Below, piece by piece: positions 14,898-59,153 of a stretch of 64,000 nucleotides of DNA. The notes under the pieces are model-generated. The model saw only the letters and a program-made list of their open reading frames with translations. It was not told where the DNA came from and searched no databases. Each line of letters starts with the position of its first letter. The first letter of the stretch is position 1. The stretch lies in assembly GCA_029261355.1 (NCBI GenBank), contig JAJDBM010000047.1, forward strand, positions 124,001 to 188,000, read 5' to 3'. The DNA comes from Nitrospirales bacterium (lineage in GTDB: Bacteria > Nitrospirota > Nitrospiria > Nitrospirales > UBA8639). The translations under genes and the position numbers were made by a program.

Positions 14898-16283
14898 TTA
14901 TAAATTTGCCAAACTATCTAACTGTGACTGCAAACTTGATAATAACCCATCAAGATTAGCGAATTTAATCCGTTGTTGTTCTTCGAATAGCACCAGTCGA
15001 GTTTCGAGAACCGATATTTGCCCACTAAAATCATCAATTTCACCCGTTAAGGAATTCTGCCGTAAAGTCAGAGCACCAAATTCAATGTCGTCCAGTTGAT
15101 CAACCGTATCGAGTAAACGTTCAGCGATCCCGGTCGTTCCGTTAGTCGAATTGTTAATGAATAGTTCTCGTACCTCGTCATAGGAATCACTCAATCGCTC
15201 ATCTAACACGGCATCATCCAACTTAATCGTTCCATCCGCAGTTTGGGTTTGAAATCCAATTTGACCAGCCGAGCTAATCGACGATAACCCACTCACTTGA
15301 TCAGACAATGCACGGCGAATTTTATCAAGAACGTTACGAACGGCTGTCTCCCCAACAAAAATTCCACGTTCTTCCGTCTCAGAATTAAACACAGTCCGTT
15401 CATTGACAAACGAAACCACTTCATTATAGGACTCAACCAATGACGAAATACCCTCTTTCACTGCTGTCACATCTTGCGTCACGGCTATGGTCGCAGGGTT
15501 ACTCAGATCAACCCCTTGAAGATTTAACGTCACGCCGGTAATGACATCTGTCAGAGTATTCGTCGAACGCTGCAAGGTGACTTGATCATTGCCAGCAGAT
15601 CCTAGAACCACTTCTGAATCTAGAGCTGCTTGAAAGGTATCAACTCCACTTGTCACGGTATCAAGCGTCGTATTGTCCGTCGTGATAGCAATGTTATTAC
15701 TCGCGCCAGTGTCGTTAGACGAGAGAACGAGACGATAGGCAGGAGTCGATTCGCTACCAGTATTCAATATCGAAGCACTGGCTCCTGAGCCAAGATCGTT
15801 TATCGAATTTTTTAGATCATCTAGAGTCGCATCACTAGATAAATTGACCGTCTGGACATCTCCACCAGCAACAGTAAAGGAAAAGGTACCAGACCCACCA
15901 CTGACAATGTCCGTGGTTGTTGAAGCGACCGTGGTTGTAGATTTGGAAGCCACTTGATGGGATGTCGCCAACTGATTAACCGTTAACGTATGAGTGCCTG
16001 CTGAAGCGGTAGATGAAACGGAGGCGGTCAAGAGGTTTTGCGAACTGGCTGTCGTGACATCAACTTTCGTTTTGTCAAAACCAATACGTGTCCGAAGACT
16101 ACTTGCGGCACTCTGAAGGCTCAAGAGCTTAGAACCGAGTGATCCAAACTCAGTACGTTTTTCTGTAGCAGAGAGCTTTTTCTCAGTAAGTCGATCAATA
16201 GGCAAACGTTCGGCCTGAACGATAAACTCCACTATTTGTCCAAAGTCAATCCCATTTCCAAGACCACCAAAGCTCACATTCAT
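14898..16283 (-). CDS. fliD: Flagellar filament cap protein FliD
   Basis: FliD forms the cap under which flagellin subunits fold at the filament tip. The 461-residue protein has the N-terminal signature GLGNGIDFGQIVEFIVQAER, Ser/Thr-rich beta domains in the centre (D2/D3), and a C-terminal coiled region (SLTGEIDDFSGQISVLETRL followed by FANLDGLLSSLQSQLDSLANL split across the end). The start ATG at 16283 has GGGAG eight bases upstream. Length is normal for a compact FliD. It lies between flaG and fliS, the standard order. Confidence 0.95.
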   Translation of the reverse strand: MNVSFGGLGNGIDFGQIVEFIVQAERLPIDRLTEKKLSATEKRTEFGSLGSKLLSLQSAASSLRTRIGFDKTKVDVTTASSQNLLTASVSSTASAGTHTLTVNQLATSHQVASKSTTTVASTTTDIVSGGSGTFSFTVAGGDVQTVNLSSDATLDDLKNSINDLGSGASASILNTGSESTPAYRLVLSSNDTGASNNIAITTDNTTLDTVTSGVDTFQAALDSEVVLGSAGNDQVTLQRSTNTLTDVITGVTLNLQGVDLSNPATIAVTQDVTAVKEGISSLVESYNEVVSFVNERTVFNSETEERGIFVGETAVRNVLDKIRRALSDQVSGLSSISSAGQIGFQTQTADGTIKLDDAVLDERLSDSYDEVRELFINNSTNGTTGIAERLLDTVDQLDDIEFGALTLRQNSLTGEIDDFSGQISVLETRLVLFEEQQRIKFANLDGLLSSLQSQLDSLANL

Positions 16284-16400
16284 ATCAAACGCTCCCTGTT
16301 ATCGTTGCGCATCCTGCGTCATGAACAACCCTGTAGCCATCATTTTCACCGAGACAGCATCCCCTCTACTCTCACAAAGATTGGATGCACATCATTAACA

Positions 16401-16862
16401 CTATGCTTCTTCTTCCAATAGAATTCCTGGTTGTTCCTCTAAGAATCGTTGCGCTTGCAAGACTTCCTCAGAGGGAATTTGCCGAATAAGTTCCCCTGTA
16501 TCTCGCTCAACTACTTTGACCACCACTCGATCTAAATCTTCCTCAACAGAAAATTGAACTTGCGAGTCGATCTGATTGATGGAATTTTGAATGAGTGCCA
16601 CTTTTTCTTTAATATCCTGATTAGTAGTCGCAACATCTTTCGCTGCTTCCGCCTCCTGCGTCCCTAAAGCAGTTTGGCCAGTTAAGGATTTTTGTACTTC
16701 TGAAGCATTCGTGCGAGGTTCTGATGGTGAAGCCAACCGAATAGCTGACTTTTTCTCTTGAACATCTGTAGACTCAGAATTCGCCTTGGCCCCAGAACGA
16801 TCGCGTACCCCTTGCCCTATAGACAATGTTACCGATGAAGTTTCTGGAACGCTATGTATCAT
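16401..16862 (-). CDS. flaG: FlaG-family flagellar protein
   Basis: The C-terminal half carries the FlaG domain: VQFSVEEDLDRVVVKVVERD, then TGELIRQIPSEEVLQAQRFL, after a polar, low-complexity N-terminus. FlaG influences filament length and lies beside fliD in many bacteria. The frame is open to a GTG at 16886, but the ATG at 16862 has GAGAGG six bases ahead and is preferred, giving 153 residues. It is separated from flagellin by a perfect palindrome. Confidence 0.9.
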   Translation of the reverse strand: MIHSVPETSSVTLSIGQGVRDRSGAKANSESTDVQEKKSAIRLASPSEPRTNASEVQKSLTGQTALGTQEAEAAKDVATTNQDIKEKVALIQNSINQIDSQVQFSVEEDLDRVVVKVVERDTGELIRQIPSEEVLQAQRFLEEQPGILLEEEA

Positions 16863-16894
16863 AATGTCCCTCTCTTCGTTAACCACTAAGCAGG

Positions 16895-16940: not shown

Positions 16941-17768
16941 TTAGTTCAATAATGAAAGTGCTTGCTGAGGCAACGTATTGGCTTGGGCCAAGATCGATGT
17001 TCCAGCTTGCACTAAGATTTGATTTCGCACAAATTGTGCAGTTTCAAATGCAATGTCAGCATCTCGAATTCGTGATTCAGCAGCCGTCAGATTTTCATTT
17101 CCTACAGCCAAGTTCTGAACAGCAGCATCAATTCTATTTTGCAATGAACCGATTGTGGCTCGAGCACTAGCCACGGAACTAATTGCGCTGTCAATGTTCG
17201 ACAAAGCACTCAGGGCCGAGTCAGACGTTGAGACGTTCGTGGTCGTCAGGTTAAGCGCTGTAGTATCTAGATCATTCAACGCAATCGATAAGGTATCGTT
17301 GGCTGAACTTCTAAACCCAATTTGAATAGAGAGCCCATTATTATCGGCTCCACTCAATAGCTTGACATTATTGAATTCTGTGACGGATGAAATACGATCA
17401 ATTTCAGATCGCAACGCGACGAACTCTTGATCGAGGAACGAACGTTCCGTCGCACCTAAAATTCCACTTGCTGATTGTTCGGCTAATTCTCGTAACCGAC
17501 CCAAAAGGTTACCAACGTTGGCAGCACCACCGTCAGCAATTTGCAAGAGACTAATACCGTCATTCGCATTCCGCGCAGCCTGGTTAATACTTCTAATTTG
17601 GGCCCGCAATGTTTCTGAAATACCCAGACCAGCAGCATCGTCAGCCGCCCGAGTAATACGGAGACCGGAAGAAAGTCGAGCGACAGACCCTGTCAACGAA
17701 TTGGTGTTCTGTTCCAGGTTCCGTTGAGCGTTAATTGAGGCTACGTTTGTGTTAACTACAAGTGCCAT
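16941..17768 (-). CDS. fliC: Flagellin
   Basis: A 275-residue flagellin. The N-terminal D0/D1 helices (MALVVNTNVASINAQRNLEQ through LSSGLRITRAADDAAGLGIS) and the C-terminal D1/D0 helices (ending ILAQANTLPQQALSLLN) are complete and canonical. The central part (about 130-200) is short and rich in Ser, Thr and Asn, with no D2/D3 outer domain, as in other compact flagellins, and would expose possible O-glycosylation sites. An AGGAGG site six bases ahead of the ATG supports the start. It is the only flagellin in the window and heads the late flagellar operon behind a sigma-28 promoter. The glycan island lies just upstream. Confidence 0.97.
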   Translation of the reverse strand: MALVVNTNVASINAQRNLEQNTNSLTGSVARLSSGLRITRAADDAAGLGISETLRAQIRSINQAARNANDGISLLQIADGGAANVGNLLGRLRELAEQSASGILGATERSFLDQEFVALRSEIDRISSVTEFNNVKLLSGADNNGLSIQIGFRSSANDTLSIALNDLDTTALNLTTTNVSTSDSALSALSNIDSAISSVASARATIGSLQNRIDAAVQNLAVGNENLTAAESRIRDADIAFETAQFVRNQILVQAGTSILAQANTLPQQALSLLN

Positions 17769-27214: not shown

Positions 27215-28243
27215 TCAGCAAACCTGACAACTGGACAAAAAATAACGATTCGTACGATTCCAAAGCATATAAAAATTTGACGACAGTTTTGCCCCACCCA
27301 GCATGGTATACTGCTCCTGTACTTCGGCCACCGCGGTCTTGACACCCTCAACTAAATAGTCATCAACAAGAATAATTCCATTTTCTTGAAGCTTCGGTAC
27401 AATGAGCTTGAGGCTCGACAGGGTCCCTTGATATTGGTCCGTATCAACTAACGCAAATGAGACATGTGGCTCTCTGGACAACACTTCAGGCAGTGTGTCC
27501 TGCACAAGCCCTTTAACCAGAGTCGTCTGTTGACCCAAGCCATGCTCCTGAACATAATGAGTGACTCCCTCAAATGATGTATCTGTAAAGAGACCCTCCA
27601 GATCAGTTTCTCGATCAGGTGCAGTAGACGCCGGCATACCGGCAAAGGTATCAAGGGCATACACTCGCCTCGCATCACCCCATTCTCTCAAGAGAAGACC
27701 CATAAACACGGTCGTACCACATTTGAAGGATCCACATTCTAAAATACACCCGTCATAGGTAGAAAAAAGAGCATGTGCGACAAGACTCAACTTTTGAACT
27801 GTCAAACATGTATCTATTCGCTTCGCCTTGGCAAGCGCCATCTTAACACCAGAACGAAATTTTCTAAGTAACAACACGGGGCACGTTAATATATTGGCTC
27901 CAGAAAAATATGTGCTCAATTTTTGAAGGAGAACATCTTCGTCATCTTGTGAGTCTGCCCCGACAATGAGTAGGTCATAATCAGCACAACGTAATTCTTC
28001 AATTGGCTTATTTTTAAAGAACACATCGCCAGGATTTCCAGCAAAATAGTCAATAATCTTAAGCCTGCTATCAATTAAATCTTCCGCAATTCGAAATAAG
28101 GAAGAATCAACACCAATACCAGCTACTCGCAGGGTAGGCTTTTGGCAAAATGCAGACAAAGCAGCGCCATAACGCTCATAAAGTGTAAGATCAATTGCTT
28201 CATTCATAAACCAAGCAAGTGATTGGTTTAACGATGTAGTCAT
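27215..28243 (-). CDS. TylF/macrocin O-methyltransferase-like protein
   Basis: A 342-residue protein in two parts. Residues about 30-130 form a Rossmann-like region (LRVAGIGVDSSLFRIAEDLI, PIEELRCADYDLLIVGADSQ) of the kind found in sugar-modifying proteins. Residues 150-330 are a TylF-type O-methyltransferase: ILECGSFKCGTTVFMG, ALDTFAGMPAS, the metal/substrate loop VDTDQYQGTLSSLK and ILVDDYLVEGVKTAV. TylF relatives O-methylate sugar hydroxyls with a divalent metal. A GGAGG site precedes the ATG. A decayed second copy of its C-terminus lies at 28592-28845. Confidence 0.82.
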   Translation of the reverse strand: MTTSLNQSLAWFMNEAIDLTLYERYGAALSAFCQKPTLRVAGIGVDSSLFRIAEDLIDSRLKIIDYFAGNPGDVFFKNKPIEELRCADYDLLIVGADSQDDEDVLLQKLSTYFSGANILTCPVLLLRKFRSGVKMALAKAKRIDTCLTVQKLSLVAHALFSTYDGCILECGSFKCGTTVFMGLLLREWGDARRVYALDTFAGMPASTAPDRETDLEGLFTDTSFEGVTHYVQEHGLGQQTTLVKGLVQDTLPEVLSREPHVSFALVDTDQYQGTLSSLKLIVPKLQENGIILVDDYLVEGVKTAVAEVQEQYTMLGGAKLSSNFYMLWNRTNRYFLSSCQVC

Positions 28244-28858: not shown

Positions 28859-29638
28859 TCAACATTTTTCCTGTTGAGCTTCCCACTGCCTTCTGTAAAA
28901 TCCCTGTTGAGGATTGACTCCCCAAACAGAATCTTGTGTCTTGGTCGCCGAAAAAAATGTACCAAACATATCACGTCCTGCAAAGGTCTCCTTATTAAAT
29001 CCACCCACTGAAAACTTATCTAACATTCCAGGCTTGTAGTCGATTAAAATGGGTTCCTCATTATGGTTCATAGGAGTTTTTTGTCCAACAAGCAGTGACG
29101 TACTTATTTCATATCTGTTGCTCAAATAATAGTCTGAAAACAAGGTAGGCGAAAACATATAAAAACCATGATCGACATAGTTATGGGTGGGCACAAAATG
29201 AATAATCTTGCCTTTCTCTTTTAACATACAGTGGATGTTTCTTAGGACATTAGGTATATGAAAAACATGTTCACATGTACCGCCGTCATAAATTAAATCG
29301 TAACGATCATATAAGCTCTCCGGAACAGGAGAGTTTAAATCCCAGATGTACGTACTATCTTGAGAAGGGTCAACATCAAGACTATGAGCGGCATCAAACC
29401 CAAGAGACTGAAAAAAGCAATGATCATCAATTGTGTCTAAATCAGGACACCAAGGATTCGCTCGCTTTGTGATCTCTGCAAGTTGCGTTAGAGGAATATT
29501 TAACTCTTTAGACTGCTTAGTAAAATCATCATATGAGAAATAAATATCTTGGCGCCCCAACTGCAACGCTACCCCTTGAAACGGCATTTTCTTCGATTCC
29601 AGTAACAGTAAGGCTGATCCACTAAGAGCTATCCCCAA
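28859..29638 (-). CDS. Putative class I methyltransferase-like protein
   Basis: A 259-residue protein. The middle section YDRYDLIYDGGTCEHVFHIP then NVLRNIHCMLKEKGKIIHFV matches the second half of a class I SAM methyltransferase fold, and FDAAHSLDVDPSQDSTYIWD resembles the loop after motif II. A clear glycine-rich motif I is missing, so SAM binding is uncertain. Similar proteins appear in polysaccharide clusters annotated as methyltransferase-like. It lies in the same orientation between the TylF relic and the gmd gene. Confidence 0.55.
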   Translation of the reverse strand: MGIALSGSALLLLESKKMPFQGVALQLGRQDIYFSYDDFTKQSKELNIPLTQLAEITKRANPWCPDLDTIDDHCFFQSLGFDAAHSLDVDPSQDSTYIWDLNSPVPESLYDRYDLIYDGGTCEHVFHIPNVLRNIHCMLKEKGKIIHFVPTHNYVDHGFYMFSPTLFSDYYLSNRYEISTSLLVGQKTPMNHNEEPILIDYKPGMLDKFSVGGFNKETFAGRDMFGTFFSATKTQDSVWGVNPQQGFYRRQWEAQQEKC

Positions 29639-29960: not shown

Positions 29961-30980
29961 TCACCGAGAATATGTGAGGCTCAAAATCTTAGCTTTCTTG
30001 AGATTTACGTCATCGGTCTCAAGCAATTCCATATCGGTGTCTACCATTTCTCGCACTAAATCCTGAAACTTGATCTGAGGGGTCCACCCTAGTCGTTCTT
30101 TCGCTTTGGAAGCATCACCTAATAATGTTTCCACTTCGGCTGGTCGATAGAATTGCGGATCACTCACCACATACTCTTGATAATCTAATCCCAGATGAGA
30201 GAAGGCTTCTTCTGCAAACTCTCGCACTGAATGTTGCTCTCCGGTCGAGATCACATAGTCATCTGGGTCGTCCTGTTGCAACATCAGCCACATGGCCGTC
30301 ACATATTCACGAGCATGCCCCCAATCTCTCAGAGCTTCAAGATTCCCAAGTTGCAACTCATTCTTCAGTCCGAGTTTAATAGCTGCTGCATGAGAAGAAA
30401 TCTTTCTGGTCACAAATTCAAACCCACGTCGAGGTGATTCATGATTGTAGAGAATGCCGCACGATGCTTGGACCCCATAGGCCTCACGATAGTTCTGTGT
30501 GAGATGATATCCTGACACTTTGGAAATACCGTAGGATGATCGTGGATGAAAGACAGTCAACTCATCCTGCGGGACCCGTGCGACCTTTCCAAACATTTCA
30601 CTAGAGGCTGCAAAGTAGAATCGACAATCAGGTGCACAATCTCTGAGGGCAGATAACACATGATGAGTTCCATTAATATTGGTATGTAACGTCGAAAATT
30701 CATCTTCAAAAGAATAGGTAACAAAACTCTGCGCGGCCAAATGGTAGCATTCATCAGGCACCACCTCTTTAAAGACGCGATACAAACTTGGCAAGCTTTC
30801 CAATGACGCTGCATGTAAATGCACATCGTCTTTTAAATGCCGAATTCTCCATAAACGACGATCTGGATCTTCCATAGCGACTCGCCGAACAATGCCATGT
30901 ACCTCATACCCTTTTTCAAGCAAGAGCTCAGCAAGGTATGACCCATCTTGCCCTGTTATACCAGTGATAAATGCTTTCAT
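29961..30980 (-). CDS. gmd: GDP-mannose 4,6-dehydratase-like SDR
   Basis: Gmd converts GDP-D-mannose to GDP-4-keto-6-deoxymannose; relatives act on GDP-heptoses. The 339-residue protein has the NAD(P) motif ITGITGQDGSYLAELLLEKG, HLAAQSFVTYSFEDE, the catalytic Ser/Tyr/Lys set in AASSEMFG and YGISKVSGYH, and the Gmd-specific NHESPRRGFEFVTRKIS and GNLEALRDWGHAREYV. This is much closer to Gmd than to the other SDRs of the island. Given the HddA/HddC-like genes nearby, GDP-D-glycero-manno-heptose is a possible alternative substrate (inference). Confidence 0.9.
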   Translation of the reverse strand: MKAFITGITGQDGSYLAELLLEKGYEVHGIVRRVAMEDPDRRLWRIRHLKDDVHLHAASLESLPSLYRVFKEVVPDECYHLAAQSFVTYSFEDEFSTLHTNINGTHHVLSALRDCAPDCRFYFAASSEMFGKVARVPQDELTVFHPRSSYGISKVSGYHLTQNYREAYGVQASCGILYNHESPRRGFEFVTRKISSHAAAIKLGLKNELQLGNLEALRDWGHAREYVTAMWLMLQQDDPDDYVISTGEQHSVREFAEEAFSHLGLDYQEYVVSDPQFYRPAEVETLLGDASKAKERLGWTPQIKFQDLVREMVDTDMELLETDDVNLKKAKILSLTYSR

Positions 30981-31965: not shown

Positions 31966-32802
31966 TTAGGCAATTGGTAAAGTTGATCGTTCTTGCAAAG
32001 AGACCGCCAGATGAACAGCTTCAGTGATGGGCATAAGACGATCGGAGGTAAAAAGTTGAAGGTGTGTCGTTCGCTTTATCGCAAGAACGTTGCAAAGGAA
32101 ATGTGGACAAATGAATACATCGTCGTCAAAGAATGAAAATATTTTATTGTTGAGTTTGTTGTTTGACGAATCTGCAATATTCGTCCAAGAAAAGGGTGGA
32201 CTCCCAAGAAGTTGTACGAAATCAACTATGCAAAGCATGTATCCAAGACTTCTGAGAGTATCGAAATGTTGAGGAAGAGGGCTTGGGGAATCGAAAAAAG
32301 AATACTCAAATAACACCGAAGCATGAGACTCTTGGAGAACGTCAAGCATTCCACGAAACACTCGATTTTCGGCTCCCTCTACATCAATTTTAATGAAATC
32401 GGGAAGTATGTTAAGCTCTTTGGAGAAATAATCCAATGTAATAGTTTTAACCTTGAATCGTTGCATGTCAGACCCTAACCGATATGAATTCGCTCCTTCT
32501 ATGCAGAGAGTCGATGCCTGATTTGTTGATGGGTCATGAATGTCACCTCCCGCATATAACACCTCCTGGCCAATCATATCACACACCCCATACGAAAATG
32601 GAAAGATGTTGGCTGCGGGGCAACGGACAGCTAGATTTTCGAGAGCAAGAAATATTTCAGGATGAGGTTCAAAACTGTAGACTCGTCCTTGTGGCCCAAG
32701 AACGTCACTAAAAGTACGAGCATAGTCTCCAGCATGTCCTCCGACATCAAAAACAACATTGCCGGCGGAAAGGATTTCATTGAACAGTAAAGTGTGGTCC
32801 AT
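31966..32802 (-). CDS. FkbM-family methyltransferase
   Basis: A 278-residue FkbM-type SAM methyltransferase: motif I VVFDVGGHAGDYARTFSDVL near residue 16, VYSFEPHPEIFLALENLA, and the family signature IKIDVEGAENRVFRGMLDVL near 140, followed by VLFEYSFFDSP. FkbM enzymes O-methylate hydroxyls of sugars or polyketides. The C-terminus after about 235 is unassigned, and coding-like sequence continues in frame beyond its double stop, so the gene may have been longer once. It lies in the minus-strand modification block. Confidence 0.85.
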   Translation of the reverse strand: MDHTLLFNEILSAGNVVFDVGGHAGDYARTFSDVLGPQGRVYSFEPHPEIFLALENLAVRCPAANIFPFSYGVCDMIGQEVLYAGGDIHDPSTNQASTLCIEGANSYRLGSDMQRFKVKTITLDYFSKELNILPDFIKIDVEGAENRVFRGMLDVLQESHASVLFEYSFFDSPSPLPQHFDTLRSLGYMLCIVDFVQLLGSPPFSWTNIADSSNNKLNNKIFSFFDDDVFICPHFLCNVLAIKRTTHLQLFTSDRLMPITEAVHLAVSLQERSTLPIA

Positions 32803-32891: not shown

Positions 32892-33821
32892 TTAGGAGTT
32901 CTTTAACACGATCCAGTTTTGAAAGCTGAATTTTTCAGGAGGAGGGAGCAGTTCAAGTACCGTCATATACCTGTTCCAGTATTTTTTAATGATTTCTTCT
33001 TTATAAAACGTCTGACTGACTTCAGGATTGCCATAGAAAAAGAAATCGGTATCTATTTCAGGTTTTTCCAGCATTGATGGTGGATGGTTGTCTTTCACCC
33101 AGTCTAGTTCCTTATTGGTGTGATAAAAATCCCAGGCAAACTCACACTGGACAGTCTGAATGCACAGACCTCCTGGTTTCAGTACTCTACTGAGTTCTGC
33201 CAACCAAAAATCCCATAAATATTTGGTGTGAGTAAAGACTGAAATTCCGTAAATCACGTCGAGAGAAGAGTCCTTAAACGGAAGATGGGGAAAAGTAGAA
33301 CCGGTCATGACTTTAATGTCATTAGGGAAATATCTCCTCATCCATTCAACTAAGAATGCCTGAATATCAGTGCCATTTAATTGCCAATAATATTTCTCCT
33401 GTTCTTTTATAAAATGACGCAACACTCGTCCGGATGAACACCCCCAATCAAGAATACTCATATGATCTTGGATCCCATGATGCTGTTCGATCAGTGTCAT
33501 AATCCTGTCATGATCATATTTACCCCATTCAAGGTATTTCTCATCATCATCAGGAGAATAACCAGGCCGGCACATTGGGGGCGGAATGGGAATGGATTCT
33601 CCCTCCATTTCAATATTCGGTCCAAAAAGCGGAGGCGAACTTTCTTTAGCATCGTCCATGGGGTAATGATACATATACTTTGCTCTGAGAAAGTCATGCT
33701 TCATAACAGGCAACTGCTGCTGAAACTCTTGTTGAACTAATGCTTTCACGAATTCGGCAATAAGTCCTCCCAATTGCCCAGATTTTTCTATTTTGTTTTC
33801 AGGCATGTATCCATTCTCCAT
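32892..33821 (-). CDS. SAM-dependent methyltransferase
   Basis: A 309-residue class I methyltransferase. Motif I is ILDWGCSSGRVLRHFIKEQE near residue 128, followed by NGTDIQAFLVEWMRRYFPND, LPFKDSSLDVIYGISVFTHT and LSRVLKPGGLCIQTVQ. The first 100 residues, with a Pro-rich IPPPMCRPGYSPDDDEKYLE, precede the catalytic fold and are typical of methyltransferases in polysaccharide clusters. Substrate unknown. The frame starts at ATG 33821; the internal ATG at 33806 (MPENKI) is possible. Confidence 0.8.
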   Translation of the reverse strand: MENGYMPENKIEKSGQLGGLIAEFVKALVQQEFQQQLPVMKHDFLRAKYMYHYPMDDAKESSPPLFGPNIEMEGESIPIPPPMCRPGYSPDDDEKYLEWGKYDHDRIMTLIEQHHGIQDHMSILDWGCSSGRVLRHFIKEQEKYYWQLNGTDIQAFLVEWMRRYFPNDIKVMTGSTFPHLPFKDSSLDVIYGISVFTHTKYLWDFWLAELSRVLKPGGLCIQTVQCEFAWDFYHTNKELDWVKDNHPPSMLEKPEIDTDFFFYGNPEVSQTFYKEEIIKKYWNRYMTVLELLPPPEKFSFQNWIVLKNS

Positions 33822-33948: not shown

Positions 33949-35133
33949 TTACGTTGTTTGAGCCAGATGGCTCCTGACCTTGTCCCGTAATGCCCCTTGA
34001 TCTATCAACGATCTTGAAACACAGAATCGACAGGTCGTGTCTAAATCACCGGAAAGTAAGTTTTGACGAACTTGCTTGATGTTGGAGTTATTTAGAATGT
34101 CGTTGAGGCTCTGTCCGGAAGCCAAAGAGCCAACTGGTTCACGTTGACAACATGGACTCACGTTCCCATCCGCCCTCACAATGGCGTAGTTCCACGGATC
34201 AAGACAATCTCTTGTTTGTCCGCTTCGTGGGTGTGCAGAATAGGTCGTGACGCTTGATCGATCCTCCTTCCATGACGATCGCTCCTTAACTTGCATTCGA
34301 TTCGTCGCATCCTCTGGCTTCGCGGCCTCCTGATTAGCACGAGCATGGATACTATCCAACAATCCAGCCTCACAACACAATTCCACACCAAACTTTTTGA
34401 TCAGGTTCATGGCACGTTCCAAGCTTCCTAATGCATTATAAAACTGTTCGTGCGGCATTTCACACACGTGGTTAAAGCTATCAGCATGCGGGAGACTCGA
34501 AAGCTTGGATAAATTATTCAACGCGAATTGCGTGACGCCTAAACTAATTCCCGTCGCCACGAAATTCTCTAAATCTAGAACATTCTGATCGGTCACAACA
34601 CACGTCCACCCAAACCTTGGAACCATATGACCATTTTTGCATGCTGCCGCTCGAACACGTCCCATGTTATATGCGAGCGTACGAAAATCCCCGCCTCGGC
34701 GAAGCTTGCGAAATAATTTAAGATCTACCGTATCGCAACTCACATTAATTTGGGTCAGCCTCGCCAAAGTATCATAGTCTTCCTGTTCCATTTCACGCGC
34801 AAAATTGCTGATCAAGGTGAGCGAAAAACCAGCGACCAGTAACTTCTGACAATAGGATCGCCAGTCTTTGTATATAAGAGTCTCTCCGGTTCCATTAATA
34901 CAGATGTGACGGAGATTTCGAGCTTTGAGTTCTTTGACAAAAGAGTCAAACTCTCCGACAAATGTCAGATCTTGCCCAACATAATCTGTACCACTAACTG
35001 AGCAATACACGCATCGTAAATTACAACGTGACGTAAATTCCAAATTGAGAGACCCCGTTGTCGGGGCCTCAAGAAGATGACTGAGGCTACTCCCTATTTC
35101 CACATGACGCTTCGGATTCACAAGCTCAATCAT
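33949..35133 (-). CDS. Radical SAM/SPASM protein, paralogue 1
   Basis: A 394-residue radical SAM enzyme. The [4Fe-4S]-binding motif CNLRCVYC lies near residue 38 and the barrel follows with ICINGTGETLIYKDWRSYC and INVSCDTVDLKLFRKLRRGG. The C-terminal SPASM region carries CLDPWNYAIVRADGNVSPCC and later CRFCVSR, which would bind a second cluster. SPASM enzymes act on peptides, or on sugars such as aminoglycoside precursors. The gene is a close duplicate of its neighbour at 35220. Presence in a glycan island suggests radical chemistry on a sugar or on a protein to be modified; this is inference. Confidence 0.85.
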   Translation of the reverse strand: MIELVNPKRHVEIGSSLSHLLEAPTTGSLNLEFTSRCNLRCVYCSVSGTDYVGQDLTFVGEFDSFVKELKARNLRHICINGTGETLIYKDWRSYCQKLLVAGFSLTLISNFAREMEQEDYDTLARLTQINVSCDTVDLKLFRKLRRGGDFRTLAYNMGRVRAAACKNGHMVPRFGWTCVVTDQNVLDLENFVATGISLGVTQFALNNLSKLSSLPHADSFNHVCEMPHEQFYNALGSLERAMNLIKKFGVELCCEAGLLDSIHARANQEAAKPEDATNRMQVKERSSWKEDRSSVTTYSAHPRSGQTRDCLDPWNYAIVRADGNVSPCCQREPVGSLASGQSLNDILNNSNIKQVRQNLLSGDLDTTCRFCVSRSLIDQGALRDKVRSHLAQTT

Positions 35134-35219
35134 ACAATCCCTCTCTTTTGATTCTGACCTCGGCCCTCACCATGTCGCCTCATTTACGCACTGAGTGCTC
35201 GCCCACGGTCTACAACTAT

Positions 35220-36407
35220 TCACGCGGTTTGAGCCAGATGGCCCTTGACCTTATTCCGTAGGGCAACAGATTCCGTTACCGGCCTTCCTGGACATACTCG
35301 GCAGCTCGTGTCCAAATCACCGGAAAGTAAGTTCTGGCGAATACGCTTGATAGTGGTGTTATTCAAGATGTCGTTGAGGCTCTGCCCAGAGGACAGTGAT
35401 CCAACTGGCGAATGAAAACAACATGGCGTCACGTCTCCATTCGCCCTCACGATGGCATAGTTCCATGGATCAAGACAATCTCGTGTTTGCCCGTTTTGCG
35501 GGTGTACGGAATAGGCAGTTACACTAGAACAAACAAGCTCTTTCCATTCCGGTGGCGCATCACTTTGCGTCAAACTCGTCGCCTTCCCAGCTTTCGCATG
35601 CTCGTGATTAATGCGAGCATGGATACTATCCAACAAACCATCGTGACAGACAAATTCCACACCAAACCGCCCGATCATTTTTAAGGCGCGTTCTAAGACC
35701 CCTACGGCCTCATAAAACTGTTCTTGGGGCATTTCACAAACATGATTGAAGCTATCAGCATCCGGGAGATCCGCAATCTTCGCTAAATTACAAAAATTAA
35801 ACTGCCTGACTCCCAAACTAATTCCCGTCCCCACATAGTTTTCCAAACCTAGAACGCTCTGATCGGTCACAACACAACTCCATGCGATTAAGGGTGGCTT
35901 ATGACCATTCTTGCATGCTGCCGCGCGAACCCGCGCCATGTTATAGACGAGCATACGAAAATCTGAGCCTCGACGAAGTTTCCTAAATACCTTGAGATCG
36001 ACGGTATCGCAACTCACATCAATTTGGGTCAATCTCGCCAAGATATCATAGTCTTCCTGATCCATTTGACGCGCAAAATTACTTGTCAAACTGAGTGAAA
36101 AACCCGCCGCCAGCAATCGCTCACAATAAGAGCGCCAATCTTGGAGAATAAGAGTCTCTCCAGTCCCACTTATACAGATATTATGAATATTTCTAGTTTT
36201 CAAGTCTTTCACAAAAGACTCAAAGTCTCCGACAAATGTCAGATCTTGACCAACATAATCTGGATGACTGAGTGAGCAATACACACATCGTAAATTACAG
36301 CGAGAGGTGAATTCCAAATTGATAGACCTCGTGGTCGACGCCTCAAGAAGATCACCGTCAGGACACTCTAGTTTCACTGGATGCTCGACATGAATGAGCT
36401 CAGTCAT
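35220..36407 (-). CDS. Radical SAM/SPASM protein, paralogue 2
   Basis: A 395-residue tandem duplicate of the previous gene, alike across its whole length and also at base level. It has CNLRCVYC near residue 38, ICISGTGETLILQDWRSYCE, and the SPASM part CLDPWNYAIVRANGDVTPCC with CRVCPGR near the end. All visible cluster cysteines are kept in both copies, so neither looks inactive. The ATG at 36407 has GGGAGG six bases upstream. The two genes are 86 bases apart and probably co-transcribed. Confidence 0.85.
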   Translation of the reverse strand: MTELIHVEHPVKLECPDGDLLEASTTRSINLEFTSRCNLRCVYCSLSHPDYVGQDLTFVGDFESFVKDLKTRNIHNICISGTGETLILQDWRSYCERLLAAGFSLSLTSNFARQMDQEDYDILARLTQIDVSCDTVDLKVFRKLRRGSDFRMLVYNMARVRAAACKNGHKPPLIAWSCVVTDQSVLGLENYVGTGISLGVRQFNFCNLAKIADLPDADSFNHVCEMPQEQFYEAVGVLERALKMIGRFGVEFVCHDGLLDSIHARINHEHAKAGKATSLTQSDAPPEWKELVCSSVTAYSVHPQNGQTRDCLDPWNYAIVRANGDVTPCCFHSPVGSLSSGQSLNDILNNTTIKRIRQNLLSGDLDTSCRVCPGRPVTESVALRNKVKGHLAQTA

Positions 36408-36760: not shown

Positions 36761-39700
36761 CTATGCGGATTTTCGGTGATGACTTGCGGAAAGACAAGCA
36801 GAGTCTACTCCCTCCAAAGTTCGTTCAATATCATCTAGCCCCTCAAAGTCTGGAGAAAGAAGCTTGAGAGTATTCATATGAATTTTGCCTTCTTCAATTT
36901 TTCCCAGCCTGATTTTCACGCTTGCTAAGGCAAATCGGACAGAACAGTTGGCAGGATTACGCTGCAGATAGGAATCGAGAGAATTCTCAAGTTTTCTCCA
37001 ATCCTCTAGGGCCGTGCATGCACGAATCAACCAATGCATGGCCTCCTCATCATCTGGATGATCCTTGAGGACCGCTAAAAGAACTTCTTGAGACTCTCTT
37101 GCTTCTCCCTTACCTATCAATGCCATAGCAAGGCCCATTCGACATTTTCGATCATCTCCGCCATAACGGTGAGCCTTACGAAAGGCCTCGCCAGCTTCAC
37201 AAAAACTCTGGGTCTGCATAAACAGAACGCCAGATGCCAACCACCCTTCAGAATGGGTTGGATGATGTTGAAAGAGATATTCAAGATGCAATTTAGCATC
37301 CTCAATTCTTCCCTGCGAAAGAGCCTCCTGGGCATCTTTCAGTTTAGCATCCATCACAAGAACAGCAGGCTGATCAGTATGAGCGGTCGAAGAAGAAAAG
37401 GAAACATCTTGAACCCTGGATTCTTGCACTTGACTCAGAATATCATGATACAGACCCACCAACTGTTCAACTGTTCTCCTCCAAGTGTATTGCGAAACAT
37501 CATCCCGAAGAATTTGCGGAGGCAAAGTCTTCATAGCCTGAAGAACGGCCTCTCGAATACTATTCGGATCGTCAGGCTCACAATAGTGAACCCCATTGGG
37601 AAGATAATCTTTGAGCGTTCCCCACGACGTGGCAGCGACAGCACAACCAAACCGAGCTGCTTCAATTGTCACTATCCCAGGCAATTCATACCAACTTGGC
37701 AAACAAAATACTTTGGCTCCTCGATAACATGATGCCAGCATGTCATCTGACAAACGATCAAGGAATAGAGTAGTTGCATTTCGTGGAAATCGTCGACAAA
37801 GGTCTTCATATTCTGGGTTATAGTTTACGCCACCAGTAACAAAAACAATTGGAAGCTGCTCATGCTGAAGAGCTTTCAAGAGCATGAGTTGGTTCTTTCT
37901 GGTCTCAAGCCGGCCCACACATAGAATATAATCTTTTACCTTATATGTATTGCAGAACAATTCTGGCCCAACATCAGCATTGAGATGGTCCATTCCAAAT
38001 TTCAAGACTTCAACACGTTGATTATCAGGATAAACTTCAAGCAATCGACGGCGTTCCACTTCGCCACTCGCAAACAGACAGGCTGCATGCTTGGCAACAA
38101 AAGAATTCTCAGAAGGTGGAACAGAAGGAAGACCACGAATCTGGCTTAAGTATGTTTCAAACTTTTGTTCATCAAACCCACTTGAAAAATACTGTTGAAA
38201 CAAGTCAATCGAAGCAGAGCACTTTGAAAGAAATTGTGGCCAGTCTTCAAATAGAGCCGTAACCACAAATGGAATCCCGGCTTGGATGGCTTCTCTTGCG
38301 CATTGCTCAGTATATTTTGGAGTTGCAAAATTAAACAGATGTACAAGATCGTATCCTTTTAATGATGATTTCCCCAACGCAATATCTACCTGTACACCCA
38401 GTTGTTCAAGACCATCCTTAAGCTTGTTCATGACCAATGTATCTCCGCCAGGATGTGACGCGGCATTTAGTCGATTTTGAAATAACACTCGGAGAGACCG
38501 ATCTTGCGAACTAGCGTAGTTTTTTTCGCTTTTAGATGAGTTAGGAACAGCATCATTAACCAGAGGAGGCTTCACTCCAGGTCGAATATCTCCCGTCGAG
38601 CTGTTTGGATTCAAATCTCTAGAAGTCAGACTCTCAACATCCTCTTGTTGCTTCTTCCAGGTTAGCGCTTGCGCCTGTTCTAAAATAGGTCTGGCACGAT
38701 CATAGTCTTTAGTTCCACGCAACAACTCGTCACCTAACAACCAATAGGCATCAGAACATTGAGGTGATCGCGTCGTCGTTTCTTGGAGTAGCTTCACCAC
38801 TTCAGAGTTCACGCCGCAACCACGGAGTACAAGTGCCAGTCCAATTTGCGCCCATTCATCATCAGGAGAAGTAATGGGTTCTTTCGACTGCATCAGATAA
38901 GGCAACCGATAACGGTAGTAGTCTTTCCAGAAATGGATTCGTTCCACTTCACTAAGATGATGTTGAAAAGTTGTCGCTGTCTCTGTCCAACTTTCTTCTT
39001 GTTCCTTTTTAGGCAGAGCAGACTTTCCACTCTCGCGAAACAGTCGAGACTGTGAGAGCACATGATCGATATAATGAAAGGAAAACCCTTTGGCTGCAAT
39101 TCGGAGCCAGTATTCGTAATCAATGGAAAAAAATAAATCTTCTCGGTATTTTCCTATTGTTTGAATAAGCTCTTTCGAATAAAAAATCGAAGGCTGATAG
39201 AGTTCTGGTAGGTCAAACCATCTCATCAATATAGGTAACGTAATTGGCACTCGGGGAATCTGCAACCACGCAATGGCTTGCGGGTCATCAGTCAAGAGAG
39301 TTTTTCCGTAGACAAAATGTCTACCCTCAGCAGAATTCATTTCCGATGACACAACTCGAAACACGTCATAACCAAAATAGTTATCATCAGCATTGAGCCA
39401 CGAAATGATATCCCCGTCTGCCAGAGCCAGAGCCTTATTCAAGGCTTCTGCTTCGCCATTATCAGGCTCAGATATCCATTTGAGATGTGGATATTCTTTG
39501 AGAATCTCAACAGTTTCATCTGTTGAATCGCCATCGACGATGATATGCTCGAAGTTGTCATAGTTTTGTGCTAGCACACTTTCAATGCACCCACGAATAT
39601 ACTTGGCACAGTTTTTCGTTGGAGTCACAATCGAAATCTTAGGTTCTGGGTTCGAGACTTCTTGTAACGTAGACATAGCATTGACCTTTTCCGGACTTTG

Positions 39701-40993
39701 AGATTTCTGAGATAGAGAAACTGTTTCGGTAATTCCTACTGTTCGCTCTTTGGCTGCGTCGATGGCGGTTCGCCAACGTTCCACGACCTGATCCAATGAA
39801 AACTGCTCAGCGATCGTTCGTCGTGCAGCAACTCCAAGCCTCCGACATAATTCAGAATCGGTATATAACCGGATCGTATATTGAGCAAATTCCGCGGCAT
39901 CTTTAGCAATAAACCCATTCACCCCATGTTCGATAGGCGATGATCTGGCAACGGCGTTCATCGCAATAACGGGAACGCCATGCGCCATAGACTCGAGTAT
40001 TTTTATTTGACACCCTGTTCCTCCCAGCATAGGACAAATTGTGAATCGACTTGACGAATACAGAGGTTTTAAATCGGAGACGTATCCTAACAGCTCAACC
40101 CCATGCACCCCTTGAACTTTCCCTGAAAAACCACCAACAGCTTGCAAGAGAAATCCTGGAACCTTCGGCAACACCAAAGGCAACACTTTACGGACAAAAT
40201 ATACATACCCTTGGACATTGAGTGGATTATTTGACCCCACGAACAAGGGCGCTCCATTGTATGCATTTGCTAGATAGTGAACAGAACATGCCGTCGAGAC
40301 AGTACTAACTGATTGACTGATCGTGTGGGACTGTATGGTCTGAGCATCTGTGTCTGTGATGGCCACGACGCCATCGTATGCATTATAAATTTCAATTTCC
40401 TTGGACTCGTTTTCGTAAGAATGATTCAACAATTCATCATAAAATGATTCTTCAATAACTGATGAATCTACCTGCTCTGGGATAACAGGCTCCTTTAAGA
40501 AAGGTAAAACCTTATTCGTTAATTGTCCATTAATTTCTAGCAAGTCGACGCTTCTGAGTATGCGAGTTGCTGACTTGCATACGTCACCAACAGCCAGTTT
40601 CCCCCACCAAGCATAATTGATGAGGATAAGATCCGGCTTCACTTTCAACACGACATTATGAAACTCTCTCAAAAGCCAAGGGTTTTGAAACTTCCCCCAA
40701 GTCTCTTGATGACCATGCTGTTGATTGTGAAGAAACATCCATTCAATCTTACTCGCCTGCGAAAGATGAACCTTTATGTTGCTTGCCTTCTCAAACTTTC
40801 TCATATCATCAGTATGCCAATTGGTATCTGGGTCTCCGAATAAGTTTGAAGCGAATAATGTGACTTCGTACCCTAGGCGCAACATTGCCATCAAATCAGC
40901 AAGCTGAACATAATGCGCACCTGTCCGTGAACCCAATGCGTTAAATGGCCAAAAAATCAAGGCTTTCTTTGCACAATCATGATCAAAAGACAT
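36761..40993 (-). CDS. Giant multidomain glycosyltransferase (GT4-GT2-TPR-GT4-TPR)
   Basis: A 1410-residue protein. Order of parts: residues about 1-420 a GT-B group 1 transferase (GVELLGYVSDLKPLYSSSRF, then GCQIKILESMAHGVPVIAMN); about 450-700 a GT2 domain (PKISIVTPTKNCAKYIRGCI, HIIVDGDSTDETVEIL, SWLNADDNYF); about 735-790 a helical TPR-like part; about 834-1190 a second GT-B transferase (YILCVGRLETRKNQLMLLKA, YELPGIVTIEAARFGCAVAA); about 1215-1395 TPR repeats. Three transferases in one chain suggest assembly of an oligosaccharide block on a protein or lipid carrier, with the TPRs recognising a partner. No signal peptide. It is the last gene of a run beginning at 43483. Confidence 0.85.
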   Translation of the reverse strand: MSFDHDCAKKALIFWPFNALGSRTGAHYVQLADLMAMLRLGYEVTLFASNLFGDPDTNWHTDDMRKFEKASNIKVHLSQASKIEWMFLHNQQHGHQETWGKFQNPWLLREFHNVVLKVKPDLILINYAWWGKLAVGDVCKSATRILRSVDLLEINGQLTNKVLPFLKEPVIPEQVDSSVIEESFYDELLNHSYENESKEIEIYNAYDGVVAITDTDAQTIQSHTISQSVSTVSTACSVHYLANAYNGAPLFVGSNNPLNVQGYVYFVRKVLPLVLPKVPGFLLQAVGGFSGKVQGVHGVELLGYVSDLKPLYSSSRFTICPMLGGTGCQIKILESMAHGVPVIAMNAVARSSPIEHGVNGFIAKDAAEFAQYTIRLYTDSELCRRLGVAARRTIAEQFSLDQVVERWRTAIDAAKERTVGITETVSLSQKSQSPEKVNAMSTLQEVSNPEPKISIVTPTKNCAKYIRGCIESVLAQNYDNFEHIIVDGDSTDETVEILKEYPHLKWISEPDNGEAEALNKALALADGDIISWLNADDNYFGYDVFRVVSSEMNSAEGRHFVYGKTLLTDDPQAIAWLQIPRVPITLPILMRWFDLPELYQPSIFYSKELIQTIGKYREDLFFSIDYEYWLRIAAKGFSFHYIDHVLSQSRLFRESGKSALPKKEQEESWTETATTFQHHLSEVERIHFWKDYYRYRLPYLMQSKEPITSPDDEWAQIGLALVLRGCGVNSEVVKLLQETTTRSPQCSDAYWLLGDELLRGTKDYDRARPILEQAQALTWKKQQEDVESLTSRDLNPNSSTGDIRPGVKPPLVNDAVPNSSKSEKNYASSQDRSLRVLFQNRLNAASHPGGDTLVMNKLKDGLEQLGVQVDIALGKSSLKGYDLVHLFNFATPKYTEQCAREAIQAGIPFVVTALFEDWPQFLSKCSASIDLFQQYFSSGFDEQKFETYLSQIRGLPSVPPSENSFVAKHAACLFASGEVERRRLLEVYPDNQRVEVLKFGMDHLNADVGPELFCNTYKVKDYILCVGRLETRKNQLMLLKALQHEQLPIVFVTGGVNYNPEYEDLCRRFPRNATTLFLDRLSDDMLASCYRGAKVFCLPSWYELPGIVTIEAARFGCAVAATSWGTLKDYLPNGVHYCEPDDPNSIREAVLQAMKTLPPQILRDDVSQYTWRRTVEQLVGLYHDILSQVQESRVQDVSFSSSTAHTDQPAVLVMDAKLKDAQEALSQGRIEDAKLHLEYLFQHHPTHSEGWLASGVLFMQTQSFCEAGEAFRKAHRYGGDDRKCRMGLAMALIGKGEARESQEVLLAVLKDHPDDEEAMHWLIRACTALEDWRKLENSLDSYLQRNPANCSVRFALASVKIRLGKIEEGKIHMNTLKLLSPDFEGLDDIERTLEGVDSACLSASHHRKSA

Positions 40994-41017: not shown

Positions 41018-43483
41018 TCAGTCAAGTTGATATGCATTATCCAATGGAAGTTCACCAAACAGACGTCGCACATCAGGATCCTGCGACTCTAAGGCCAATG
41101 CCCACTCAAAAGCTTGGCCTGCCTCTGGGAATTTACGATGCTGAGAAAGTTTCTCTCCATATAAACCAAGTAGATTGGCGGATATCAGAAGGGAATTTCC
41201 TGAAGAATTTTCAGGTCTACAGGTTAAGAACTTATAAAAGAAATCTGGATCAACTTGTCTAAACTCACGATACGCAAGCAAAAATCCTGTGATACTTTCC
41301 TTACAAGCAGAAAACTCGACATCTTCCCCCTTGTAATAGTCTCTGCTGTGGAGGAGCCGAAAAGCATAAAAATCCTTAAAAAAATGAATTTTCTCACCAA
41401 CTTCTAAGCATGGGAGATATGCCAGACAGATCTCCCACCATTCTTTGGCCTTTACCGCATAAGGAGTTTCAGTTTTCCCTCCAGATCGATAAATCATGGA
41501 TTTTGAAAACACTTGATCTACAAAATGAAATTGATAACCATTTAATGCAACCCTGAACCAATATTGATAGTCGGTTCCGTAACAAAGATGTTGACTAAAA
41601 AGACCAACGTCTTCAAATAACTCTCGAGAGAAAAAAATAGAAGGTTGAAACAGATTGAGATTAAACCATCGTGTTAGGGAGACAACATTTATTGGAGCTG
41701 CCGGCATCACCCAATGCGTCGGTTCTTTCTCGTCGTTTATAAAAATGGTTTTTCCATATACCAGATGCCGTCCCTCTCCAGGACTTAGCTCATCGGCCGC
41801 ACGATTCAAAGCGCCATCGACATAACAATCATCAGCATTGAGCCAACCAATTACATCGCCACTCGCCATTCGCAAGGCTTTATTTAATGCCTCAACTTCT
41901 CCATTGTCAGGCTCAGAAATCCACTTGATATGCGGGTATTCCTTTAAGATCTCGATTGTATTGTCTGTTGAACAACCATCAACGATAATATGCTCAAAAT
42001 CATCATAGTTTTGTCGGAGTACACTCTCAATACAGTCACGAATCAATGACCCACAGTTATAGGTAGGCGTCACAATAGAGAACTTCGGACGTTTGCTTTG
42101 AGGTGTAAGTCCATCTTGAAGCAGAGGTAGAGGTGTCGCCGGATCTGATGATGGCTCAGATTTTTGGGAAATTGAATTGGTTTGTACAGTGTCGCAACGA
42201 TCTTCATTTAACCCGTTCAACCTTTCCTGAGCGCGCAGATGAGAAGAATCCATTGCGACAAGCTCCTCTAAGATATGAATGGCAGACGTAATCTGCCCCG
42301 TACGTTCATACGTCATTGCCAATGCATAACGCACAGCAATGTTAGAAGGAAACCGAGAGATTGCCATAGCTAGAGATTTTTGGGCACGGTGGTCATCGCC
42401 TAATGCTGTATGGATAAATGCCAACGCCAAATAGGATTCAACCAGTTGAGGATGCTCTCGAACCAATCTCATGCAAAATGGTAAAGACTCAGATAAGCAC
42501 GCTCGTGCAAGCCGCGGCTCAGAACACGTCATCGCAGACTCAACGTTCTTTTCATACATCGAATACTGATCAAACGATGAAGGCCTCATCGTCTCTCCCT
42601 GAGGGTTTCGACTCCACTGCCAAAAAGGATAATGAATAAGTAGTAGGGTCTCCAGGTCCCAATGTTCAGGAGCCTCTAAGACCGCACTAATTATTTCATC
42701 TCCAAAGTGATTCATCACCTTGCCTCGAACGAAATAGGGAAGGACATCAAGGTAAGACGGAGATTTAACCATGAAGAGAATACGTTGAAGAACCTGAGAC
42801 TGGTCTGCCCATTCCTTTCTACCCGCAGAGGAATAACTATCTGAGCGTATCCTCATGGTCGCAAGGGGTTCAGGGATGTAACAAATACCATGTCGAAAAC
42901 CGAGAACAAGATACGTAAACCAATCACAATGCCATCTTAATTCAGAAGGGTACCCACCAATTTCCCGCAATGCGGCTAACTTTGTTACAGTTGTGTGACC
43001 TGCAATCCAGTCTCCGTTAATAACTTCGGCAAATTCTTCTGGCGAGAGGTAGCCAGGCCTGTCCTTCCACTCAAGTTTGCTAACCCTCCTCTTATTGCTC
43101 TGCTCATCAAGCCATGCAGGATCAGAGCAACAGAGCGGGGCATTTGGATGCTGAGCTAGAAGACTCATTGATTTTTCAAGAAATCCTGGAAGAAATGTAT
43201 CGTCAGCCGAACACCCAGCACTATATTCTCCCTGCGCGAGCTTTAAAAAACGATCTATTGAAAAAGGAAGCCCCTTGTTGCTGTCATTCTGAACTAATTT
43301 GATATTCGAATTTTTTCGACAAAATGCATCAATAACCTCAAGGCTGTTATCAGTAGAACAATCGTCGATAATTATTATCTCAGTAGGCTTGAAGGATTGA
43401 CTAAGAATCGCGCCTAGAGCCTCTTCAAGATAATGGGCATCATTGTAGTTTGGGACAAGTACCGACAGCGTGTGGCTTTGCAT
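41018..43483 (-). CDS. Bifunctional GT2-TPR-GT2 glycosyltransferase
   Basis: The ATG at 43483 starts MQSHTLSVLVPNYNDAHYLE exactly at the first GT2 strand; the frame is open 27 residues further but without family resemblance. About 821 residues: GT2 domain one at 1-250 (DDCSTDNSLEVIDAFCRKNS, CSADDTFLPGFLEKS), a helical TPR-like middle (SYLALAFIHTALGDDHRAQK), and GT2 domain two at about 460-720 (PKFSIVTPTYNCGSLIRDCI, GWLNADDCYVDGALNRA). The second domain closely resembles the GT2 domain of the giant neighbour. Both domains keep the DXD-type acidic residues. It lies 24 bases upstream of the giant gene. Confidence 0.85.
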   Translation of the reverse strand: MQSHTLSVLVPNYNDAHYLEEALGAILSQSFKPTEIIIIDDCSTDNSLEVIDAFCRKNSNIKLVQNDSNKGLPFSIDRFLKLAQGEYSAGCSADDTFLPGFLEKSMSLLAQHPNAPLCCSDPAWLDEQSNKRRVSKLEWKDRPGYLSPEEFAEVINGDWIAGHTTVTKLAALREIGGYPSELRWHCDWFTYLVLGFRHGICYIPEPLATMRIRSDSYSSAGRKEWADQSQVLQRILFMVKSPSYLDVLPYFVRGKVMNHFGDEIISAVLEAPEHWDLETLLLIHYPFWQWSRNPQGETMRPSSFDQYSMYEKNVESAMTCSEPRLARACLSESLPFCMRLVREHPQLVESYLALAFIHTALGDDHRAQKSLAMAISRFPSNIAVRYALAMTYERTGQITSAIHILEELVAMDSSHLRAQERLNGLNEDRCDTVQTNSISQKSEPSSDPATPLPLLQDGLTPQSKRPKFSIVTPTYNCGSLIRDCIESVLRQNYDDFEHIIVDGCSTDNTIEILKEYPHIKWISEPDNGEVEALNKALRMASGDVIGWLNADDCYVDGALNRAADELSPGEGRHLVYGKTIFINDEKEPTHWVMPAAPINVVSLTRWFNLNLFQPSIFFSRELFEDVGLFSQHLCYGTDYQYWFRVALNGYQFHFVDQVFSKSMIYRSGGKTETPYAVKAKEWWEICLAYLPCLEVGEKIHFFKDFYAFRLLHSRDYYKGEDVEFSACKESITGFLLAYREFRQVDPDFFYKFLTCRPENSSGNSLLISANLLGLYGEKLSQHRKFPEAGQAFEWALALESQDPDVRRLFGELPLDNAYQLD

Positions 43484-43560
43484 AGTTGTATGATCTTTCA
43501 ATAAATGTATCCAGTGTTCTAAATGTCTAAATTGATTTACCCCACCAAATCTTCTTAAAA

Positions 43561-43849
43561 TCAATCAATCGCTTCAGCATCTGCCCCATCTAAACAACAT
43601 AGCGAAAATTCTGTCGTATCTTCCAAAAATGGCGCCTTGGTTGCCTCATGAATAATTGCCAACATCGAGAGAGGAAAGATTGCATGTCAAATATCACCAC
43701 CCAATCTGCACATACATGCCACACAACGTTCTGCAGGGACTAGTCGTATCCGGCGTGTAACTTGGCATTCGCTAAACAACACAGCAAGGCGTTCATCTTC
43801 AAGCACGAGAAATATTTCACTTTGTCTGAATAGAATGATGATGAATTCT
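43561..43849 (-). pseudogene. Possible small coding relic between glycosyltransferase and aminotransferase
   Basis: One minus-strand frame reads SEIFLVLEDERLAVLFSECQ and RRIRLVPAERCVACMCRLGG, meets an in-frame TGA near 43685, then continues AIIHEATKAPFLEDTTEFSL and CCLDGADAEAID to a stop at 43561. The composition looks protein-like on both sides of the stop. No family is recognised and no ribosome site seen. It may be a decayed gene, or two tiny genes, or chance. Otherwise the stretch 43484-43849 is empty. Confidence 0.3.
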
Positions 43850-50723: not shown

Positions 50724-50746
50724 CGTATAGAAATCATATTTTAATC

Positions 50747-56166: not shown

Positions 56167-56168
56167 AT

Positions 56169-57188: not shown

Positions 57189-57349
57189 GATGCTTTTCCT
57201 AAGATCTGCCGTATATCTAATTCCTTTTAATATTTTTGTTTCTCATTCATAAATAAGTCATGGGCTGCAAATACTAGACCCCACTACAAGAGAAGCTTTC
57301 CTCATGAAATAGCAGTCTATCGTTGAAAACCATGTCGTTTTATTCGGAT

Positions 57350-57390: not shown

Positions 57391-57401
57391 AGAATGGATG
57401 C

Positions 57402-59149: not shown

Positions 59150-59153
59150 AGTG

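Follow-up and report, generated by a model that had tools for sequence, protein, structure and literature searches.

A paralogous pair of Twitch-domain radical SAM genes in a probable flagellin glycosylation island of a Nitrospirales bacterium

Most of the known radical SAM enzymes with sugar substrates come from antibiotic pathways. Among the described systems, BtrN, the 2-deoxy-scyllo-inosamine dehydrogenase of butirosin (PDB 4M7S/4M7T), combines a radical SAM core with a C-terminal Twitch module; its reaction is the oxidation of an alcohol group on an aminocyclitol, and four cysteines ligate the auxiliary cluster (PMC9012708). Flagellin itself is modified by an Fe-S and SAM-dependent enzyme, the lysine methylase FliB, which has a single cluster bound by the pattern CX4CX3CC and lacks the radical SAM core motif (PMC8598068). 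Flagellin glycosylation islands have been described in Enterobacteriaceae (PMC4875605) and Geobacillus (PMC5109656), where they are located beside flagellin genes, vary between strains and carry glycosyltransferases, sugar-nucleotide genes, FkbM and other methyltransferases and a formyltransferase. The main texts of these two surveys contain no mention of radical SAM, an absence that is weak evidence as it concerns the open-licence literature. A single 'radical SAM metalloprotein' gene has been reported in passing in the capsule cluster VII of Campylobacter jejuni HS:19, among methyltransferase, glycosyltransferase and capsule genes (PMC8743553).

The window analysed here is a stretch of 64,000 nucleotides (C47:124001-188000) from the 4.6 Mb genome of a Nitrospirales bacterium. 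It was compared within a set of five genomes of the same genus: the window genome (G000), Nitrospirales bacterium NPIRA02 (G023, L007), G021, G022 and G024. NPIRA02 is the nearest named relative of the window genome and belongs to the same genus by kinship. The window carries two radical SAM genes, A and B, with the following features:

33949..35133, minus strand: rSAM-A, radical SAM/Twitch protein of 394 aa, 77% identical to its NPIRA02 orthologue
34021..34215, minus strand: Twitch module of A, T307-C371, with C310, C328, C329, C368 and C371, four of which align with the auxiliary-cluster cysteines of BtrN
35002..35025, minus strand: CNLRCVYC of A, residues 37-44, predicted SAM cluster ligands
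35220..36407, minus strand: rSAM-B, radical SAM/Twitch protein of 395 aa, 76% identical to its NPIRA02 orthologue
35292..35486, minus strand: Twitch module of B, T308-C372, with C311, C329, C330, C369 and C372
36276..36299, minus strand: CNLRCVYC of B, residues 37-44, predicted SAM cluster ligands

The two proteins share 69% identity over 394 residues with a single gap, in agreement with the original prediction of two neighbouring proteins alike over nearly their full length. Each scores above the Pfam cut-offs, with 44 bits for Radical_SAM and 35 and 40 bits for SPASM, and each has CNLRCVYC and the complete set of five cysteines in its C-terminal module. The claim that the cluster cysteines are kept extends well beyond the pair: in an alignment of 11 family members, eight cysteines are invariant (C37, C41, C44, C311, C329, C330, C369 and C372 in the numbering of B), which is far beyond chance, and E84, W91, N110, R145, W315, R357 and other residues are likewise invariant. 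The orthologues of A and of B show a dN/dS of about 0.2, and both genes are therefore under purifying selection. The gene pair is real and well supported; it is located in the probable flagellin glycosylation island described below and belongs to a Twitch subfamily that is undescribed by a comparison covering the NCBIfam models and the BtrN chains in the PDB.

The C-terminal module had been read as a SPASM end, and this part of the prediction has to be corrected. The SPASM motif comprises seven cysteines arranged, with gaps, as CX9-15GX4C-CX2CX5CX3C-C (PMC6231123). A and B show only C-x12-G-x4-CC followed by CxxC, which is the Twitch or half-SPASM pattern: the first two and the CX2C cysteines are there, together with one adjacent cysteine, and the complete seven-cysteine motif is not found, so that the cysteine count rules out a full SPASM assignment. 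The Pfam SPASM model is nevertheless passed because it covers the half that the two modules have in common. By their sequences, A and B are thus Twitch-domain radical SAM enzymes with a core CxxxCxxC, a half-SPASM module and one predicted auxiliary cluster. Their family is unnamed, as no NCBIfam model reaches its cut-off for either protein. The best match, NF033640 (twitch domain-containing radical SAM protein, N_Twi_rSAM), resembles A and B in that its two halves match both of their modules; however, Twitch is N-terminal there and C-terminal in A and B, which score 73-75 bits, far under the cut-off of 170.

A search of all PDB sequences with the family profile gave BtrN as the best match (E 4e-12, in two aligned segments), and the CX..GX4C and CX2C cysteines of its Twitch module align with C311, C329, C369 and C372 of B. 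Single-sequence phmmer did not find BtrN; the relation seen by the profile is one of distant homology and not of orthology. The profile match is strongest in Twitch, and with a narrower profile (A1) the core retrieves MoaA first and the Twitch module BtrN. A and B share with BtrN the order of the modules and the four auxiliary-cluster cysteines; they differ from it by about 120 additional residues, low identity, a fifth invariant Twitch cysteine (C330 in B) and their location in glycan islands instead of an aminoglycoside cluster. We take BtrN with moderate confidence as the mechanistic model for A and B; the match does not prove that they are members of its family. An AlphaFold prediction was of mediocre quality, with a pLDDT of 68.5 and low values around the SAM-cluster loop. 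Its structural neighbours are tied (viperin, SuiB, PFL-AE, BlsE and DesII, with many radical SAM structures at Z 13-16), and fold comparison was set aside as a means of choosing the substrate class, as these ties among the families listed do not single out a sugar substrate.

The genes surrounding the pair are arranged in the order flagellin, FlaG and FliD block; GT9 and CgeB-like transferases; methyltransferase block; A and B; giant transferases; sugar-nucleotide genes. The principal features outside the pair are:

14898..16886, minus strand: fliD and flaG, flagellar flank of the island
16941..17768, minus strand: flagellin of 275 aa, likely acceptor (Flagellin_N 128 bits, Flagellin_C 86 bits)
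27215..28243, minus strand: TylF-type methyltransferase (PF05711, 71 bits), 66% identical in G021, with which it is common
28859..29638, minus strand: methyltransferase-like protein of 259 aa, cassette gene (weak Methyltransf_23 match below cut-off), 76% in NPIRA02
29961..30980, minus strand: GDP-mannose 4,6-dehydratase-type SDR (gmd), shared island backbone (PF16363, 397 bits), 83% in G021
31966..32802, minus strand: FkbM-family methyltransferase of 278 aa, cassette gene (PF05050, 73 bits; TIGR01444), 73% in NPIRA02
32892..33821, minus strand: class I methyltransferase of 309 aa, cassette gene (Pfam Methyltransf_11, 47 bits), 85% in NPIRA02
36761..40993, minus strand: multi-domain glycosyltransferase of 1410 aa with TPR repeats, 62% in G021
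41018..43564, minus strand: double GT2 glycosyltransferase of 848 aa with TPR repeats, 51% in G021
54631..62142, minus strand: heptose-type sugar nucleotide genes of the same island (HldE-like, SIS isomerase, GHMP kinase, HddC-like guanylyltransferase)

Pfam matches confirm that methyltransferases lie on one side of the pair and giant multi-domain glycosyltransferases on the other, and the glycan island that had been proposed can be specified further by its position. Beyond the window there are genes read as flgL and flgK from their length, order and a flagellin C-terminal match, and in the four genomes with a continuous contig the island is located between flgK/flgL and fliC-flaG-fliD; in G024 its two ends are on separate contigs. 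The glycan genes are thus next to flagellin genes and their content varies between relatives, as in the islands described from Enterobacteriaceae and Geobacillus. The locus is very probably a flagellin glycosylation island; it is by its position that it is assigned to flagellin and not to another surface glycan. The window flagellin (fliC) is 91-92% identical to its orthologues in all other genomes of the genus. Against TIGR01472 the gmd-type SDR scores 382 bits, just under the cut-off of 415. A split transketolase-like pair at 51781-53549 and a C-methyltransferase (Methyltransf_13/14) at 60089-61297 suggest a branched-chain sugar besides the heptose-type sugars. The segment 43565-43849, with 73% DNA identity to a cupin (WbuC-like) gene of NPIRA02 (46669-47190), is apparently a decayed copy. 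The flagellin island of G022 (L062-L065, G022:C7:10000-84000) contains at relative positions 49201-58095 an ORF of 2964 aa, 73% related over 1482 aa to a G024 protein of 1495 aa with short glycosyltransferase-like matches.

Gene-by-gene comparison shows that A and B are part of a cassette of five genes, with the FkbM, the 309-aa methyltransferase and the 259-aa methyltransferase-like genes, present in the window genome and NPIRA02. None of the five has an orthologue in the stretches of G021, G022 and G024 that were compared. G021 lacks the cassette but keeps its surroundings, namely gmd (83%), the TylF gene (66%) and the giant transferases (62% and 51%). The tandem arrangement holds in the window and not in NPIRA02, where both paralogues are kept and the FkbM gene stands between them. 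The flagellin of NPIRA02 is 95-96% identical to those of the cassette-less G022 and G024 and 92% to that of the window, and the distribution of the cassette does not parallel flagellin relatedness. A flagellin signature of the carriers was considered and found unconvincing, as only three residues are exclusive to the two of them. The cassette genes are flanked by relics: the start of the GT9 gene (24226-25503) recurs at 31394-31514 and, shorter, at 28407-28455, and a piece of TylF is present at 28710-28783. These look like scars of island remodelling by past insertions or duplications.

The paralogues are 78% identical to each other in NPIRA02 and 69% in the window, and A is 77% identical between the two genomes. 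The identity within NPIRA02 is thus slightly above that of the A orthologues, which suggests concerted evolution of A and B. Nevertheless, 19 alignment columns distinguish the two paralogues in both genomes. Eight of these 19 fall in predicted barrel strands, versus eight of the 137 other variable columns (Fisher p=8e-5, from four sequences and with strands taken from the model of mean pLDDT 68.5, mostly in its better blocks). None of the 10 genome-specific columns is in a barrel strand, and several paralogue-specific positions alternate along the strands (173/175/177, 204/206 and 253/255), as lumen-facing residues would. The model-based pattern suggests one scaffold with two active sites, which may serve two reactions.

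The family is rare: it was found in two of the 395 genomes of the phylum, in three of 385 genomes of the alphaproteobacterial class and in two of 398 genomes of the phylum of that class (all counts include the seed genomes; the latter two were made at the chosen E-value). The distant relatives carry the same eight invariant cysteines, and the modules occur in three arrangements: Twitch last, Twitch first, or two phage ORFs. Twitch precedes the core in Rhodospirillales MAGs (L008, L009), at 28% identity in the core and 40% in Twitch, and these genes adjoin rplT-pheST and an SDR, not a glycan locus. The five bacterial Twitch-last loci (Nitrospirales, an Azospirillum brasilense plasmid, G578 and G1162, both from one order, and G848) all lie in glycan loci: nucleotide-sugar dehydrogenases, glycosyltransferases and FkbM genes are found in Azospirillum; FkbM, a GDP_Man_Dehyd/epimerase gene, GT2 and an ABC-2 exporter in G848; and GT2 genes, a GDP_Man_Dehyd-like gene and a rhamnosyl O-methyltransferase/CmcI gene in G578. 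Pfam did not identify the methyltransferase-like gene after the radical SAM gene of G578 as FkbM, and it was not counted as such. The trees of the core and of the Twitch module are too deep to tell in which order the rearrangements took place.

Core and Twitch are encoded by neighbouring ORFs beside glycosyltransferases on one viral contig of 178 kb (L031, IMGVR_UViG_3300010885_055964), where they adjoin GT32-like and GT2 genes at 6050-12622; a protein with a weak MptE/Maf-like match is encoded further on. A phage origin of the pair was rejected: the phage collection contained no match, and a further viral scan gave none besides this contig, in which the modules are separate ORFs. In the Azospirillum plasmid glycan region (NZ_CP059454.1, 1-66000; L030, L075) there are four radical SAM genes that differ in type: one is core-Twitch with a Rossmann-like N-terminal extension, one SPASM-like, one Twitch-first-like and one B12-binding-like. 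Several of them lie beside FkbM genes. Its protein P0003 was rejected on comparison as a close relative of A and B. With this region and the C. jejuni HS:19 gene, a possible parallel by its description that concerns a capsule and not a flagellum, the earlier statement that the gene neighbourhood has no obvious known parallel was too strong.

Radical SAM genes are enriched in the islands of this genus: the four islands contain 10, versus 1.1 expected from genome-wide counts (Poisson p=2e-7), or p=9e-4 if the genes are grouped into about six separate families. The G021 island encodes two radical SAM proteins of the B12-binding type, one of them just under the Pfam B12-binding cut-off, and the G022 island encodes three (one under the cut-off) together with a TPR-radical SAM-Twitch protein. 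Each fully covered island has two to four radical SAM enzymes, which sets them apart from the islands of Enterobacteriaceae and Geobacillus as the main texts of the two surveys describe them. It may thus be that radical tailoring is habitual in the flagellar glycans of this genus and that A and B represent one version of it. A wider proposal, which we put forward tentatively, is that the islands edit flagellin glycans by radical chemistry as a rule, with radical SAM classes that vary from island to island (BtrN-like Twitch pairs, B12-binding proteins, a TPR-Twitch fusion). In this view A and B would form a regiospecific pair with a common scaffold, gene conversion keeping the two similar while their active sites stay distinct, and would belong to an undescribed glycan-editing family in which Twitch has been relocated to the end, to the start or to a separate protein.

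We propose that A and B are probably paralogous BtrN-like Twitch enzymes acting on sugars of the glycan destined for flagellin, by oxidation or epimerisation followed by O-methylation. Cleavage of S-adenosylmethionine to a 5'-deoxyadenosyl radical is established for the radical SAM superfamily, and in A and B it would take place at the [4Fe-4S] cluster bound by CxxxCxxC. The radical would abstract a hydrogen bound to a ring carbon of a sugar, which could be a nucleotide sugar supplied by the gmd or heptose genes or part of the growing glycan. The Twitch auxiliary cluster, held by the same four cysteines as in BtrN, could then accept the second electron, converting an alcohol into a ketone; alternatively, a lumen cysteine could return a hydrogen to give the epimer. 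The barrel-strand differences suggest that A and B would act at two positions or on two related sugars. From the composition of the cassette and the island, the FkbM and class I methyltransferases would O-methylate the product and the giant transferases would build the chain destined for flagellin.

The original prediction left the target of the radical chemistry between a sugar and the protein acceptor. The glycan assignment is the firm part of the best explanation, and the substrate is likely to be a sugar of the island glycan, because all bacterial relatives found with Twitch last lie in a glycan context, the substrate of BtrN, the best profile match among solved structures, is a sugar-like ring, and there is neither a peptide-recognition domain nor a conserved small ORF. 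Oxidation is a plausible outcome and slightly favoured, part of the remaining expectation falling to other radical chemistry. Epimerisation following the logic of NeoN, in which a barrel cysteine returns the hydrogen from the other face and inverts a stereocentre without net oxidation, is a somewhat doubtful alternative. It would explain why there are two enzymes, as a pair with different donor cysteines: each paralogue has a barrel-strand cysteine of its own (C253 in A, C206 in B), and C254 is kept in all four Nitrospirales proteins. Yet these cysteines are missing from the distant relatives, save for C206 in the phage protein, and so do not define the family. The complete four-cysteine auxiliary site favours electron transfer of the BtrN kind while being compatible with epimerisation.

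Direct action on the polypeptide of flagellin, or of FlaG or FliD, with an outcome analogous to that of FliB, is improbable. The flagellin genes are close by and FliB provides the precedent of an Fe-S enzyme acting on flagellin (PMC8598068), but flagellin sequence does not track the presence of the pair: that of NPIRA02 is closer to those of non-carriers, and there are just the three carrier-only residues. Moreover, the glycan loci of far relatives have no flagellin gene in the stretches seen, and inspection of the cysteine positions did not reveal the FliB pattern CX4CX3CC in A and B. That the two are RiPP maturases and their cassette simply ended up in the island is more improbable still, even though SPASM/Twitch radical SAM enzymes often have this role and SkfB and SuiB are among the nearest folds. 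Only about 28 residues precede the core, leaving no room for an RRE domain; the bacterial relatives with Twitch last are all in glycan loci; and membership in a known peptide-maturase subgroup, which had been named as the finding that would overturn the prediction, was checked and no NCBIfam maturase model was over its cut-off. The small peptide gene that had been suggested near the pair in related genomes was looked for, and no conserved small ORF near both loci is a plausible precursor: the short conserved stretches are antisense, lie at the edges of genes, or are too weak and too short for one. The reading of A and B as enzymes acting on sugars is thus the best supported.

As there is a sister genome without exactly this cassette, mass spectrometry can put the idea of glycan editing to the test. 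With its three module orders, the family is also a case for studying how Twitch modules get acquired. The probable radical step at a sugar ring carbon is unlisted in the published surveys of flagellin islands searched in the open-licence literature, and its interest would be higher if the radical-editing habit of the islands were confirmed. If A and B act on flagellar sugars, surface glycans can bear modifications beyond those made by ordinary sugar-nucleotide enzymes, and a class of tailoring enzyme is being overlooked when glycan islands are annotated.
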